The notes under the pieces were generated by a model that did no database searches, was not told where the DNA came from, and was given only the letters and a program-made list of their open reading frames with translations. The position numbers and the translations under genes are program-made. A stretch of DNA of 64,000 nt from an uncultured Armatimonadota bacterium (GTDB taxonomy: Bacteria; Armatimonadota; Fimbriimonadia; Fimbriimonadales; Fimbriimonadaceae), in assembly GCA_903833215.1 (NCBI GenBank), contig CAILEM010000058.1, forward strand, positions 1-64,000, in the 5' to 3' direction. How positions within the stretch are numbered: position 1 is the first letter of the stretch; each line of letters begins with the position of its first letter. Below are positions 22,804-31,874 of the stretch, piece after piece.

Positions 22804-23028
22804 GATGTTCTTTCCTTTCACGCTCCAGTTGAGCGCAAGTGTCTGAACGAGCCCGGGACCAGATTTCTAACAGTGGCCGCGCGACTTTCCAAGAAATCTC
22901 TAGCGAACGGCAACGTAAGTCAAGTCTTATCGAATTTTCAGAGAATCCTAATATCTGTTGGTCATGATGCCAGCTAACCAATGCCCGGATTAGCCGTTCG
23001 AGTGATTGGAAGGAGTCGCACAAACCTC

Positions 23029-25500
23029 ATGGCACATTCCCGCTTTCGAATGAAGCACCTTGCCCTATCCTTCATTTTCCTGCCGACGATGTTGCTGGCT
23101 CAAACCGATTCCGTGTTCGGCACAAATGGCCTCAGTGACCCGTGGGATGACTTGAGCCTCAATGCCAAGACTCGGCTGAAGCTCAGCTTTCGCAATGCAA
23201 ACGTTGATAGCGTCATTGCGATGATCGAACTTGCATCTGGGATCACGATTGTCAAAGACCCTACTCTAACGGGATCGATTACCGTCACAACCTCCAAGCC
23301 GGTTTCAATTGCCGAGGCCTTCTATGTTTTTGATTCTGTCCTCAGGCTTCGTGGCTTCGAGATCAGTCGTCAGCGGAGAATTTTAGCTATCAAAGCGACT
23401 CCTAAGGCGACGATTCGAGGAGGGCCAGGCAGCAATGCGAATGGACAGAGCTTTGGCCCAATGCAGGGTGGACCCGGAGGCTCAACCATCGTGAAATTCT
23501 ATCCACTCCAATTTGCCAGTGCCGTTCAGGTAGCGAGGGCGATCAACGATGTGTTTCAGTCTTCGACCGCGAACACGAACCGTGGGGTTGGCGGTTTTGG
23601 ATTTCCTGGGCAGGGAGCTGGTGGCCCACAGGGTGGACCGGGAGGGCCAGGCGGACTAGGCGGTCCGGGAGGTCCAGGTGGGCCCGGAGCGTTCGGTGGC
23701 AGTGCGGACCCGTCTCAAGGTAACGGAATGGCTTCGGGAATGAGTGGTGGTACCGTTCGGGCCTCGTATGAGGAATTTAGCAACTCCGTTATTGTCAACG
23801 CGTCAGCTTCCATGCAAACACAAGTCGCCGCACTGATTAAGGATATCGATAAACAGCAAACTCAGGCTTTGCGATCGAAGACATATACTCTGTCCTATTC
23901 GAGTGCCTCCGATTTGGCGACCGTCATTCAGAACGTCCTTGTCGCAAATTCAAGTAAGGGAAGAAATACCCCTACGTCTTCAACGACCCAACAGGGCTTT
24001 ACAGGTTTTTCTCCTTTCGGCGGGTTTGGATCTTCGACATCATCTCAGACCTCAACGGTAGCCGTTGCCGATACGCGCACGAACTCTCTCATTGTTACGG
24101 GTACCGAAGATCTACTGAAGATTGCTGACAAAATCGTTGAGGATCTTGATCGGAAAATTCCGTTTTCGACGACGACGTTTGTTTTCCAACTTCAGAACGC
24201 GCGGGCCGATACGGTAGCGAACCTATTGACGGCGGCCTTTGGACAACGTCAAGGTTCAAATTCAAGATCAAACACAACGATAACGCCGACGAATAACTCA
24301 TTTAGTTCGACATCAAAATCCAGCGGCGCCACCTCAGGAGCTGACGTGACAACTGATCAGAACCTGGCGATCAAGTTACAAGATCCAAACGCCCAAAGTG
24401 GTGATCTGTTGACGTCAGTGGGTGTGACCCAAGGATTCGGCGGTGGCATGGGTGGTGGATTCGGAGGCGGACAGACGCAAGGCCGTTCAAGCTCTTCCAC
24501 CAGTTCAACAACGACCCAGTCGATGGGTTACGACAAGAATGGGAAGATCACGGGGGTGCATGATCTCACCGGACAAGTCACGGCAATTGCAGATCCGAAT
24601 ACGAACTCAGTGATCATTGTAACCTCGCCGGATAACGCTGACCTTGTCAAAAATGTTATGGATCAGTTGGACAAGATTCCTGAGCAAGTAATGATTCAGA
24701 CCGTCATTGTGGAAGCAACCCTTGAGAAATCCTCCCAGTTTGGGTTGGAATGGAATTTTGCCCAAGGCAAGGCATTTGGAAACAAAGGAGTTACGGGTAA
24801 AGCGGGAACTGGCTTTGGCCTGCAATCCGCGAGTCCATCGCTTCTGGGCATGAGCTACGTCCTAAGCGGAGGAGACTTAGCGGCTTTCTTTAATATGCTT
24901 CAGACCGACACGAAATATCAGGTCTTATCGACTCCGCGAATCTTCACTTCGAACAATATGCAAGCTCAGATTAACATCAGTCAGAGCATTCCGTATATCG
25001 TAAGCACTATTCAGAATACGAATGGAACGTACAGCTATAACTACGCCTTCCAAGATGTAGGCATTGTACTGACGGTAACGCCGCATATCACAAGCAACGG
25101 CTACGTGACGATGGATGTGACTCAGACGGCAAACGACCTTCAGAGCTACACATCGTTTAACGCGCCAATCGTTAACCAACGACAAGCAGAAACCACGGTT
25201 TCGGCAAAAGATGGCGAGACGATCGTTCTCGGTGGAATGATCCGCAACCAGGTGAGCGCGACGGTGAACAAAGTTCCCCTGCTTGGTGATTTGCCGCTGC
25301 TGGGTGCACTGTTCCAATCAAAGACGAATGACCGCCAGAAGACTGAATTGCTAGTCTTCTTGACCCCCAGAGTCGTTCGAGACCCGGCCGAGGCAAAGCG
25401 CTTGCGGGAAGAGAGCGAGCGTGAAGTCAGTCCAGACATCGTAAAGCAAATGAAATCTTCCGGGAAGGTGGGTTTGCCTGGTCAAAAGAAACAGGGTTAG
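23029..25500 (+). CDS. Secretin (GspD/PilQ-like) outer-membrane channel
   Basis: This protein of about 823 residues has a signal peptide (MKHLALSFIFLPTMLLAQ within the N-terminus). It has an N0 domain (LKLSFRNANVDSVIAMIELA), several N1-type repeats (VKFYPLQFASAVQVARAIND, SVIVNASASMQTQVAALIKD, TNSLIVTGTEDLLKIADKI), and a secretin domain ending LLVFLTPRVVRDP. It should form the multimeric gate of a type II secretion or type IV pilus system. A Gly/Pro-rich stretch interrupts the first N1 repeat, and two other Ser/Thr/Gly-rich linkers occur. No other secretion genes are adjacent. I preferred the ATG at 23029, with GGAAGGAG 13 nt upstream. The ATG at 23050 is an alternative. Confidence 0.9.
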   Translation: MAHSRFRMKHLALSFIFLPTMLLAQTDSVFGTNGLSDPWDDLSLNAKTRLKLSFRNANVDSVIAMIELASGITIVKDPTLTGSITVTTSKPVSIAEAFYVFDSVLRLRGFEISRQRRILAIKATPKATIRGGPGSNANGQSFGPMQGGPGGSTIVKFYPLQFASAVQVARAINDVFQSSTANTNRGVGGFGFPGQGAGGPQGGPGGPGGLGGPGGPGGPGAFGGSADPSQGNGMASGMSGGTVRASYEEFSNSVIVNASASMQTQVAALIKDIDKQQTQALRSKTYTLSYSSASDLATVIQNVLVANSSKGRNTPTSSTTQQGFTGFSPFGGFGSSTSSQTSTVAVADTRTNSLIVTGTEDLLKIADKIVEDLDRKIPFSTTTFVFQLQNARADTVANLLTAAFGQRQGSNSRSNTTITPTNNSFSSTSKSSGATSGADVTTDQNLAIKLQDPNAQSGDLLTSVGVTQGFGGGMGGGFGGGQTQGRSSSSTSSTTTQSMGYDKNGKITGVHDLTGQVTAIADPNTNSVIIVTSPDNADLVKNVMDQLDKIPEQVMIQTVIVEATLEKSSQFGLEWNFAQGKAFGNKGVTGKAGTGFGLQSASPSLLGMSYVLSGGDLAAFFNMLQTDTKYQVLSTPRIFTSNNMQAQINISQSIPYIVSTIQNTNGTYSYNYAFQDVGIVLTVTPHITSNGYVTMDVTQTANDLQSYTSFNAPIVNQRQAETTVSAKDGETIVLGGMIRNQVSATVNKVPLLGDLPLLGALFQSKTNDRQKTELLVFLTPRVVRDPAEAKRLREESEREVSPDIVKQMKSSGKVGLPGQKKQG
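23584..23700 (+). repeat. Gly/Pro-rich (GGP) repeat inside the secretin gene
   Basis: This stretch encodes about 39 residues dominated by GGP/GGF units, interrupting an N1-like repeat after IVKFYPLQFASA. Most likely it is a flexible loop in the periplasmic part of the channel, and its length may vary between strains. Confidence 0.7.
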
Positions 25501-29042: not shown

Positions 29043-29585
29043 GTGTCGATCGCAATAACTGGCGGGATTGGGGAAGGGAAGTCCACTGTCCTCGCCCATA
29101 TCGCAAGTTTCGGATTTCGAACCGCATCTGCGGATTCGGTTGCGCGTGAGATCTTCTCGCAACCCGCAATCAACGAGTCACTGGCGCGATTGGTCGGGGT
29201 TTCAGGGCCAATCTCGTCTCAGAACCTACGGGCCGCGATTGTTCAAAGCCCTGGGATTCGTCGTGCGGTGAACAGAATCATGCATCCTGCTGTTATGGAG
29301 GCCATCCGGCAGTCCGGGGCTGAATTTGTGGAGGTCCCGCTTTTGGTCGAGGCTTGCCTCCAAGGCAGGTTTGCGTCGATTTGGGTTGTTACATGCGGCC
29401 CAGAGGCGCAAGTGGAGCGTCTGAGGGCCAGATATGGCCCCAATGTCGATGTCAGAATGGTGTTGAATACCCAATTGCCAACATCATCGAAAATTCCGTT
29501 TGCGGATGAAGTAATTCGAACGAATTGTTCAGATGAAGCCGTCAGGCGGGATATATCTATGGCTCTCGCACGCAGATTCGAATGA
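29043..29585 (+). CDS. coaE: Dephospho-CoA kinase
   Basis: The 180-residue P-loop kinase starts SIAITGGIGEGKSTVLAHIA. It shows the CoaE features ADSVAREIF after the P-loop, the RIMHPAVMEAI helix, and VEVPLLVEACLQGRFASIWVV. It catalyses the last step of coenzyme A synthesis, phosphorylating the 3' hydroxyl of dephospho-CoA. It begins with GTG. The LID region (RARYG) is shorter than in E. coli CoaE. It stands alone after the S1 terminator. Confidence 0.92.
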   Translation: MSIAITGGIGEGKSTVLAHIASFGFRTASADSVAREIFSQPAINESLARLVGVSGPISSQNLRAAIVQSPGIRRAVNRIMHPAVMEAIRQSGAEFVEVPLLVEACLQGRFASIWVVTCGPEAQVERLRARYGPNVDVRMVLNTQLPTSSKIPFADEVIRTNCSDEAVRRDISMALARRFE

Positions 29586-29591
29586 GGTTGA

Positions 29592-29620
29592 TTGCATCGA
29601 TTGAATGATCGTGCTATACT
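29592..29620 (+). promoter_or_regulatory. Strong sigma70-type promoter
   Basis: TTGCAT (29592-29597) and TATACT (29615-29620) are separated by 17 bp, close to the consensus. Transcription would begin near 29627, giving a leader of about 210 nt before the GTG at 29841. Confidence 0.7.
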
Positions 29621-29632
29621 CCACCCGATCTG

Positions 29633-29801
29633 CCTGCCCGGCGTATCACTTTGATTAGGGATAAATGCCGGTGGGGCCAAGGATTGGAAGGTTGTTTGAT
29701 CGGAGCGAAGTTACCAGCCGAGGCTATATGTCTGTGAGAGAGACGAGTGGACCCGGACAGGGGTGGTTTTCTGAAGCGCGTACGAATAACCGACGGGCAG
29801 G
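29633..29801 (+). ncRNA. Candidate structured leader RNA, class unknown
   Basis: CCTGCCCG (29633-29640) pairs perfectly with CGGGCAGG (29794-29801), and a further CG/CG pair lies one G-A mismatch inward. Smaller hairpins lie within: CCAA-GGA-TTGG, GTCT-GTGAGAG-AGAC and ACCC-GGACAG-GGGT. The element sits between a strong promoter and an exported-protein gene. It does not match the conserved segments of the riboswitch classes I can recall. It overlaps a possible 58-codon reading frame, so the pairing may be accidental. Confidence 0.35.
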
Positions 29802-29841
29802 GCGCCCAAAGCGAATGAGGATTAAGGAGGACGCGTCATAG
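29665..29841 (+). CDS. Possible 58-residue leader ORF coupled to the next gene
   Basis: An ATG at 29665, with AGGG 4-5 nt upstream, opens a frame of 58 codons. Its TAG shares its last base with the GTG of the next gene (TAGTG), a typical translational-coupling junction. The product (MPVGPRIGRLFDRSEVTSRG at the start) is basic, Arg/Gly-rich and lacks a signal peptide or known domain. A frame of this length can arise by chance, so the coupling junction is the main support. It competes with the structured-RNA reading of the same leader. Confidence 0.35.
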   Translation: MPVGPRIGRLFDRSEVTSRGYMSVRETSGPGQGWFSEARTNNRRAGRPKRMRIKEDAS

Positions 29842-31874
29842 TGAGGCGGTTCATCACATCGTTACCCGGAAAGGTCATCGGTCAGGTCGTAATAACGGCA
29901 CTGATATTGCCATCCATCACCCTGGCTCTATTCGCGAGGGCGAGCGCGCAGATCGCTACGCTTCCGAGTTGGGCCGTTACTGAGTTTGTCAACAGGAAGT
30001 CTCCAGGGACTACTTTTGGCTTGAAAGCATCCGAAGTGTTTGCCAGCGAGCTTGGCAAGACTGGCGATATTGACGTCGTTGCTGCCGACAGCGTCAAGCG
30101 AGCCATCGAAAACCTCGGTATTGCCACACCACCCGACAGCCTAGTGAACTTGCTTCGCTTGGCTCAAGAAGTTCATTGCACTTCTATCGTCCGTGGCGAA
30201 TTGGTGGACTACAAGGTCCTTCAAGTAGCTGGCGGTCGACAGGCTGCGGTTGCAATGAAAATTGAAGTTTTCGACGTTGCGTCTGGTCTCACCGTTAACG
30301 GTGCTGCAGTACGTGGCGTTTCATCCATTCGTGCAGGCAGCGTTACTGACGATACGCTGATCAACGACGCGATTGGTCAGGCGGCTGGTACATCCATTCG
30401 CCAGATCCAAATGCACAAGCTGCCGGTCGGCACAGTCCTTAACACTCAGGCCAACAAGGTCTTGATTAACAAGGGTGCTCGTGCAGGCTTTGCAGCAGGC
30501 CAGGAGCTTATTGTAAGCCGGGGCCGAGATCAGGTCGCCACCGCGAAAGTAGTGGAAGTTGAGCCTGACAGTGCGTACATCTTCGCAAGCAATGTTGACC
30601 GCGGTATCAAGCCCGGTGACAAGGTTCGCGTTGTTTACAAAGTTCCCGACATCGAAATGGATCCTAATGCTGGAACCCATATTCGATCCGTTCGAAACAC
30701 AGCGTTCCCATCCGGGCTCGTCTCTGTAGCGCTTGTCCTCGGATTGGTTGCTGCCCTCGTTGGCGCAGGTAATGGCGGAAGCCAGGATACCGTGTCAAAC
30801 GTCGAAGCTCGACCGTTGATGTATCTGAACTCGGTCCCTGCGGTTCTGATTACTTGGAGTCCAAATGCATTCGCAGGCGGAACTTCACAACGAGCTGCTT
30901 GGCAGATTTGGCGACATGACGTCCTCGACACGCCTGTTGGCGTAGCATCTGGTCTCGTCCAGGATTATGTTGATCAGGTAGGAACGGGCACGGCGGCTGG
31001 AGTTCTTCAGTACGCGCAGTTCACTGCTAACCAGGCTGGTTACAACCAGGTTTGCAACTACTCTTCGGCATGGGATACGACCAACACCAACGCAATTCCA
31101 AGCATCGTTGTTGGCACGCAGTACATGTACCAAGTTCAGGAAGTCTACGACCTGCTGTCGATTGATCTTCCAAACGGCGGAACAGGCGGTAGCGGATCTG
31201 GAAGCGGAACTGGAACAGGTACCACTGGTACCGGGACTGGAACGACAGGCACTGGAACTGGATCGACCGGTTCGACAGGTACTACAGGTTCTACTGGAAC
31301 TACGGGTTCCACCGGCTCAACCGGCTCGACTGGTTCGACTGGTTCGACTGGATCAACCGGTTCAACAGGAAGCACGGGTAGCGGCGGTCAGCTTTGCTAC
31401 TTCTTGACTTCCAAGGTCACGGCGATTGGTCTTGCGACTCCAATTAATGTTCCAACTCCGGTTTCCCCGGCAGAAGGACAGTCTTTGGGTCAAGCGACTC
31501 CGTTCTCTTGGAGCTCCGTCCAAGGTCCAACTTCGAAGATCTCTTGCGAGTACGTTCTAGAGCTTTCCACATCGCTTACATTTAATCGTGGAACCTATGT
31601 TCAGGTCGCACGCTTCTCGAACAACCTCGCTGGAACGGTCACGACACCGGGTGCGGGTATCAATCCCTTGTCGTTCTTCCCGAATGCGACCTCGGTTACT
31701 CCAATCTATTGGAGAGTTGGCGCTCGCAACCTCGCGGACGTACCTGGACCTGCTAAGGACTCGTTGACTGGCGAAAGATATATCTTCTGCCCGCCACGTA
31801 GCTTCAAGTTCACTGGTACGCCTCCTCCTCCGCCAAAGACTCATCATCGTCATATCGGCAAAGGTGGAATCTAA
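29841..31874 (+). CDS. Exported CsgG/FlgT-like protein with Thr-Gly-Ser repeat
   Basis: The 677-residue protein has a signal sequence (about residues 1-38, VVITALILPSITLALF). A domain of about 150 residues resembles the CsgG/TolB-like secretion-assembly fold (WAVTEFVNRKS, VVAADSVKRAIENLGI, CTSIVRGELVDYKV). Next comes a FlgT C-terminal-like beta domain (VLINKGARAGFAAGQELIV, GIKPGDKVRVVYKV). A hydrophobic helix near 292-310 follows, then a fibronectin-like section, a long Thr-Gly-Ser repeat (446-516) and a C-terminal beta domain ending in Pro- and His-rich residues. It is probably an envelope protein. The GTG start has AAGGAGG upstream. The combination is not one I recognise. Confidence 0.75.
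   Translation: MRRFITSLPGKVIGQVVITALILPSITLALFARASAQIATLPSWAVTEFVNRKSPGTTFGLKASEVFASELGKTGDIDVVAADSVKRAIENLGIATPPDSLVNLLRLAQEVHCTSIVRGELVDYKVLQVAGGRQAAVAMKIEVFDVASGLTVNGAAVRGVSSIRAGSVTDDTLINDAIGQAAGTSIRQIQMHKLPVGTVLNTQANKVLINKGARAGFAAGQELIVSRGRDQVATAKVVEVEPDSAYIFASNVDRGIKPGDKVRVVYKVPDIEMDPNAGTHIRSVRNTAFPSGLVSVALVLGLVAALVGAGNGGSQDTVSNVEARPLMYLNSVPAVLITWSPNAFAGGTSQRAAWQIWRHDVLDTPVGVASGLVQDYVDQVGTGTAAGVLQYAQFTANQAGYNQVCNYSSAWDTTNTNAIPSIVVGTQYMYQVQEVYDLLSIDLPNGGTGGSGSGSGTGTGTTGTGTGTTGTGTGSTGSTGTTGSTGTTGSTGSTGSTGSTGSTGSTGSTGSTGSGGQLCYFLTSKVTAIGLATPINVPTPVSPAEGQSLGQATPFSWSSVQGPTSKISCEYVLELSTSLTFNRGTYVQVARFSNNLAGTVTTPGAGINPLSFFPNATSVTPIYWRVGARNLADVPGPAKDSLTGERYIFCPPRSFKFTGTPPPPPKTHHRHIGKGGI
31176..31388 (+). 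repeat. Thr-Gly-Ser coding repeat
   Basis: About 71 codons encode GTG, TTG and STG units in varying order with different synonymous codons. The variable codon use suggests the protein repeat is selected rather than freshly expanded DNA. It likely makes a long flexible linker, and Ser/Thr could carry O-glycans. Confidence 0.85.

Follow-up and report, generated by a model that had tools for sequence, protein, structure and literature searches.

The window analysed here, a stretch of DNA of 64,000 nucleotides, contains a long leader with a strong promoter and an open reading frame (ORF) of 58 codons whose stop codon overlaps the start codon of the next gene. What this leader does is the question raised by the locus. 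The best reading is that a conserved gene for an envelope protein in Fimbriimonas-type Armatimonadota has here its long 5' leader and the region where its translation is initiated. Judged by comparison with relatives, it looks like an ordinary kind of gene leader whose ends are unusually conserved.

The leader and its two flanking genes are all on the + strand. The gene 5' of the promoter is coaE, encoding dephospho-CoA kinase (29043..29585; PF01121, E 4.1e-25), and the 58-codon ORF sits between it and the gene for an exported protein of 677 aa (29841..31874). Orthologs of this protein occur in 143 of 151 relatives, and no Pfam family matches it, though almost all of the relatives searched have it. 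In a Foldseek search with a low-confidence structure model of residues 1-330 (pLDDT 51), the N-terminal half matched FlgT (8.1e-12), CsgG (1.4e-6), PelC and LpoB; the order of the secondary-structure elements and a weak NCBIfam match to LpoB in one ortholog agree with these results. At about residues 447-517, before its C-terminal part, the protein has a repeat stretch rich in Gly, Ser and Thr. The product is probably a FlgT/CsgG-like envelope protein, which resembles the FlgT/CsgG/LpoB/PelC family in these Foldseek matches but differs in having no Pfam match, the model reaching a pLDDT of only 51. A few genes 5' of coaE there is a secretin of the GspD/PilQ kind (22981-25500), and the downstream neighbours of the locus carry FlgD-like and invasin/Big_1-like domains; because of these neighbours, the region may represent a cluster of envelope or surface genes.

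Next, we examined leaders gathered from about 80 Armatimonadota genomes via orthologs of the downstream protein. The promoter (29592..29620) has a -35 TTGCAT (29592-29597), a 17-nt spacer and an extended -10, TGCTATACT, in which TGC (29612-29614) precedes TATACT (29615-29620). The promoter sequence TGNTATACT is conserved among the orthologous leaders, and TGNTATANT is found 142-301 nt 5' of the start codon in most of them. Transcription would start at about 29627, some 215 nt 5' of the GTG, giving a leader of about 210-215 nt. Since both the promoter and the leader length recur in orthologs, the long leader and strong promoter proposed by the first-pass annotation hold. The interior of the leader has no alignable sequence beyond the nearest species.

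The RNA structure of these leaders is concentrated at the inferred 5' end. Folding of whole leaders gave a mean z of -1.39 (32 leaders). Locally, the signal was strongest at the inferred transcription start, where 50-nt windows averaged z -1.42 +/- 0.20 (32 leaders) and 60-nt windows -1.19 +/- 0.20. Windows 20-40 nt 5' of the start had z of about 0, and the coding control about -0.4 to -0.6. The structure excess lies mostly in the first 50-60 nt. In the window a 5'-terminal hairpin of -28.4 kcal/mol is predicted (29625..29687), its stem starting 4 nt after the -10 hexamer, and in many congeners a predicted stem starts 4-8 nt after that hexamer, with quite different sequences. In four independent close pairs (L089-L090, L027-L067, L032-L033 and L021-L022), our tally of changed base pairs gave 14 of 26 still paired within the first 70 nt and 10 of 32 elsewhere in the leader. 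These results are suggestive of a 5'-end hairpin conserved in position, not in sequence, although the signal is modest. Note that a small candidate hairpin, GGGC-N5-GCCC (29795..29807), precedes the ribosome-binding site; by visual inspection it was also spotted in several congeners, where its sequence is either similar or changed.

The other end of the leader is conserved in sequence. The initiation block GGAGGACGCGTCATAGTGA (29826..29844) consists of the Shine-Dalgarno (SD) sequence GGAGG, N10, the GTG and an A, with the consensus GGAGGA-NN-CGTCA-NN-RTGA among orthologs. GGAGG-N10-start is kept in 49 of 55 near and 21 of 28 far orthologs; among the near ones, 43 of 55 keep CGTCA and 54 of 55 have NTGA at the start codon. 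The part of the block beyond the SD, CGTCA, is conserved as well. The block is also gene-specific: GGAGGANNCGTCANNRTGA was matched in 27 of 61 genomes, once in each and always at the start of this gene, and a reversed control pattern matched in none of the 61. A genome-wide motif was rejected, since the one other match of a shorter pattern in the window's own genome lies inside a coding-like stretch and has no start codon at the required spacing. Sequestration of the SD by RNA was likewise rejected: its mean unpaired probability was 0.449, compared to 0.445 with shuffled upstream leaders, so the upstream leader is predicted neither to hide nor to expose it.

Between these two ends lies the ORF (29665..29841), in the +1 frame relative to the main gene. 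It runs from an ATG at 29665 to a TAG at 29839-29841, the G of which is shared with the GTG at 29841. An alternative start, TTG at 29692 (49 codons), lies 8 nt after AAGGA (29679-29683), and the ATG at 29665 is not kept in the closest relative, which has CTT there. The overlap of stop and start, already proposed from the single sequence, is confirmed and recurs: TAGTG is found in 14 of 55 orthologs, and NTGA, present in 54 of 55, closes the upstream ORF (uORF) frame on the start codon even where the TAG has been lost. By itself the ORF is not unexpected. Of dinucleotide-shuffled leaders, 10.9% contain an ORF of 58 codons or more in some frame, and in 9.4% the uORF's own frame is open for at least 58 codons; in this one sequence the ORF, like the 8-bp stem discussed below, is at chance level.

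Only comparison with relatives appears to put the frame above chance. In orthologs, the +1 frame runs without a stop over a median of 58 codons 5' of the start codon, while the other two frames have a median of 14 each, a gap due in part to stops within the conserved last 25 nt. That region was excluded, and with the 25-40 nt next to the start left out the medians were 46-50 codons versus 16-24. Among 44 leaders less than 75% alike, the uORF frame had 33 stops from -160 to -25, and the other two frames had 66 and 75 (p 3.6e-5). The +1 frame was the longest open frame in 28-31 of these 44 at every edge tested, including 40 nt 5' of the start (p about 1e-6 to 4e-5; 28-30 of 44 with 25-40 nt excluded, p 3e-6 to 4e-5). 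Note that the frame tested was the one already named by the first-pass annotation, and that these p-values are somewhat optimistic since the leaders are not fully independent. The scarcity of stops is a feature of the genus and family. The uORF frame was longest in 12 of 14 leaders within the genus, in 16 of 30 for the remainder of this first leader set, and in only 8 of 22 of a separately gathered, more distant set, which has no frame bias; with all sets pooled, the count was 36 of 66 (p 3e-4).

The best single reading, to which we give about an even chance of being right, is a coupled uORF (termination-reinitiation) in an ordinary long leader with a 5' hairpin. Transcription would begin at the extended -10 promoter about 215 nt before the GTG, and the transcript would start with the positionally conserved hairpin, which may protect its 5' end. 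The central part of the leader, which most congeners keep open in the +1 frame, would end exactly on the start codon (TAGTG or GTGA), beside a very strong, gene-specific SD block. Ribosomes crossing the uORF would terminate at the overlap and initiate anew on the main gene. The peptide would be a by-product, and the frame a ribosome track leading to the start codon. The frame bias of the 44 leaders and of the genus, the promoter at -142 to -301, NTGA in 54/55, GGAGG-N10-start in 49/55, the once-per-genome block and the 5'-end structure count for this reading. Against it are the lack of third-position bias, the in-frame stops that break the uORF in two of the closest relatives (L023 and L045), the 8/22 of the distant set and the modest hairpin signal, the window's own whole-leader z being -0.5 to -0.8. 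Moreover, start codons in the uORF frame do not pair with SDs better than those in other frames, so the idea that uORF starts are favoured by better SDs was rejected. Finally, coupling is not obviously needed, because the main gene has a strong SD for which no sequestration is predicted.

The main rival is a plain untranslated leader, for which the 5' hairpin and the strong ribosome-binding site suffice and the open frame is incidental. Here the frame bias would be a fluctuation in related genomes and NTGA the usual preference for an A after the start codon. We regard this as possible, though we would not expect it to be right. In its favour are the chance-level ORF and stem of the window, the absence of codon constraint, the missing SD advantage of uORF starts, the interruptions in L023 and L045 and the unbiased distant set. 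Against it stands the frame bias, with p of about 1e-6 to 4e-5 over the 44 dissimilar leaders and 12 of 14 within the genus. This bias persists with the conserved 40 nt left out, and RNA structure alone cannot produce a frame-specific lack of stops.

Another possibility could be that a uORF selected for openness alone acts with the gene-specific element GGAGGA-NN-CGTCA-NN-RTGA, of which genomes of Fimbriimonas-type Armatimonadota have at most one copy, to control the envelope gene, perhaps via a dedicated RNA-binding regulator; this proposal is tentative and, in our view, unlikely. A regulator such as CsrA or the gene's own product could control initiation by binding purine boxes and CGTCA near the start codon, in which case the block would be gene-specific and conserved beyond the SD because the regulator binds it. 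In support of this, an upstream purine box, GAGGA (29817..29821), belongs to a conserved pattern: [ACG]AGGA is found within -45..-17 in 38 of 55 orthologs versus 9 of 55 in a control stretch, at variable distances from the SD that are not multiples of three. Moreover, in 42 of the 49 leaders that have CGTCA, codons 2-3 (GRCG) offer a pairing partner for CGTC, and this pairing would place the start codon in a loop; the once-per-genome block with its CGTCA (43/55) points the same way. The genome also encodes two CsrA genes (L142, C77:109049-109204; L143, C29:47776-47925). CsrA sites have an ANGGA core, however, and the upstream GAGGA box mostly lacks it. The CGUC/GRCG start-codon hairpin is possible in near relatives only (42/55): distant relatives keep CGTCA without its GRCG partner, and re-pairing is never seen where a leader has lost CGTCA. 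Control of this kind is improbable.

The ORF could instead encode a functional microprotein or an attenuation-type leader peptide; the first-pass annotation had suggested a leader peptide. The frame is indeed kept open in near relatives, but the third-position bias that a selected peptide would leave was not found in close pairs. Substitutions were spread evenly over codon positions (8/8/10 in L021-L022; 1/9/1 in L027-L067), uORF dN/dS ranged from about 0.45 to above 1, and uORF base composition had no codon periodicity, unlike the main gene. Because the open frame lacks third-position bias, the peptide sequence does not appear to be selected. A C-terminus of KEDAS or EDSS does recur among the translations, but this is the SD block GGAGGACNCGTCA read in the uORF frame; it is dictated by that block, and the CGTCA there does not vary at third positions. 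Apart from this C-terminus the sequences cannot be aligned, and the ORF product has no Pfam match. A conserved leader peptide was rejected for want of third-position bias; a functional peptide is very improbable and, on the even substitutions over codon positions, largely refuted.

The same annotation had noted an 8-base pairing between 29633 and 29794 and had proposed a new structured regulatory RNA. The arms, CCTGCCCG (29633..29640) and CGGGCAGG (29794..29801), are perfectly complementary and the sole such 8-mer pair within the leader, so the pairing stands as an observation; as a conserved stem it does not. Dinucleotide shuffling of the leader yields one or more perfect 8-bp pairs in 16.5% of cases, and the window's own whole leader does not fold better than its shuffles (z -0.79; second estimate -0.47). 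In the nearest species (L022, L045 and L023) the leader contains no perfect 8-bp pair whatever, and in the closest, L022 (80% identical DNA), both arms have drifted and the pairing shrinks without compensation. The long-range stem was rejected as a chance match. A covariance search of Rfam gave no match to the leader at the gathering score, and the best E in a permissive search was 1.1. The excess of structure is a local one, found mainly near the 5' end, with the look of a generic hairpin, not of an aptamer. A ligand-binding riboswitch built on this stem, for which the long leader with predicted structure speaks, is hardly credible and is rejected on present evidence, being already refuted for the 29633/29794 stem, since Rfam gave no match, the stem is lost in relatives and within the chance rate, the interior of the leader is poorly conserved in sequence, unlike aptamers, and exposure of the SD is predicted to be independent of the upstream leader. 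Note that the RNA and ORF views, which had been presented as mutually exclusive, turned out not to be so here.

The literature searched contained no studies of leaders of this kind in the phylum Armatimonadota. If the coupled-uORF reading is right, the leader would be a clear example from nature of a frame maintained for the passage of ribosomes, not for its peptide, and the once-per-genome initiation block offers a concrete handle on gene-specific translational control of an envelope protein.

The proposed parts resemble known systems. In mRNAs of the Escherichia coli ompA type, a 5'-terminal stem-loop acts as a stabiliser far upstream of an accessible SD in an envelope-protein gene. The hairpin here would have the same arrangement, at a 5' end placed from sequence alone, and has no sequence relation to that stabiliser; it may have a stabilising role. 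In the E. coli iraD leader, uORF-coupled translation and CsrA control were demonstrated experimentally (PMC5574718). It shares with the leader here the length, the short ORF and a stop overlapping the start codon of the downstream gene, but the iraD SD is sequestered (PMC5574718), whereas the SD here is not predicted to be, and coupling and CsrA control are here hypothetical. Analogous coupling was demonstrated for uPPE2/ppe2 of Mycobacterium tuberculosis (PMC11260477). There, ppe2 lacks an SD and lies behind a B12 riboswitch (PMC11260477), whereas the gene here has a strong SD and its leader no riboswitch match; both have an out-of-frame uORF, and the 4-nt stop/start overlap (NUGA) of ppe2 is also that of most orthologs of the gene studied here.
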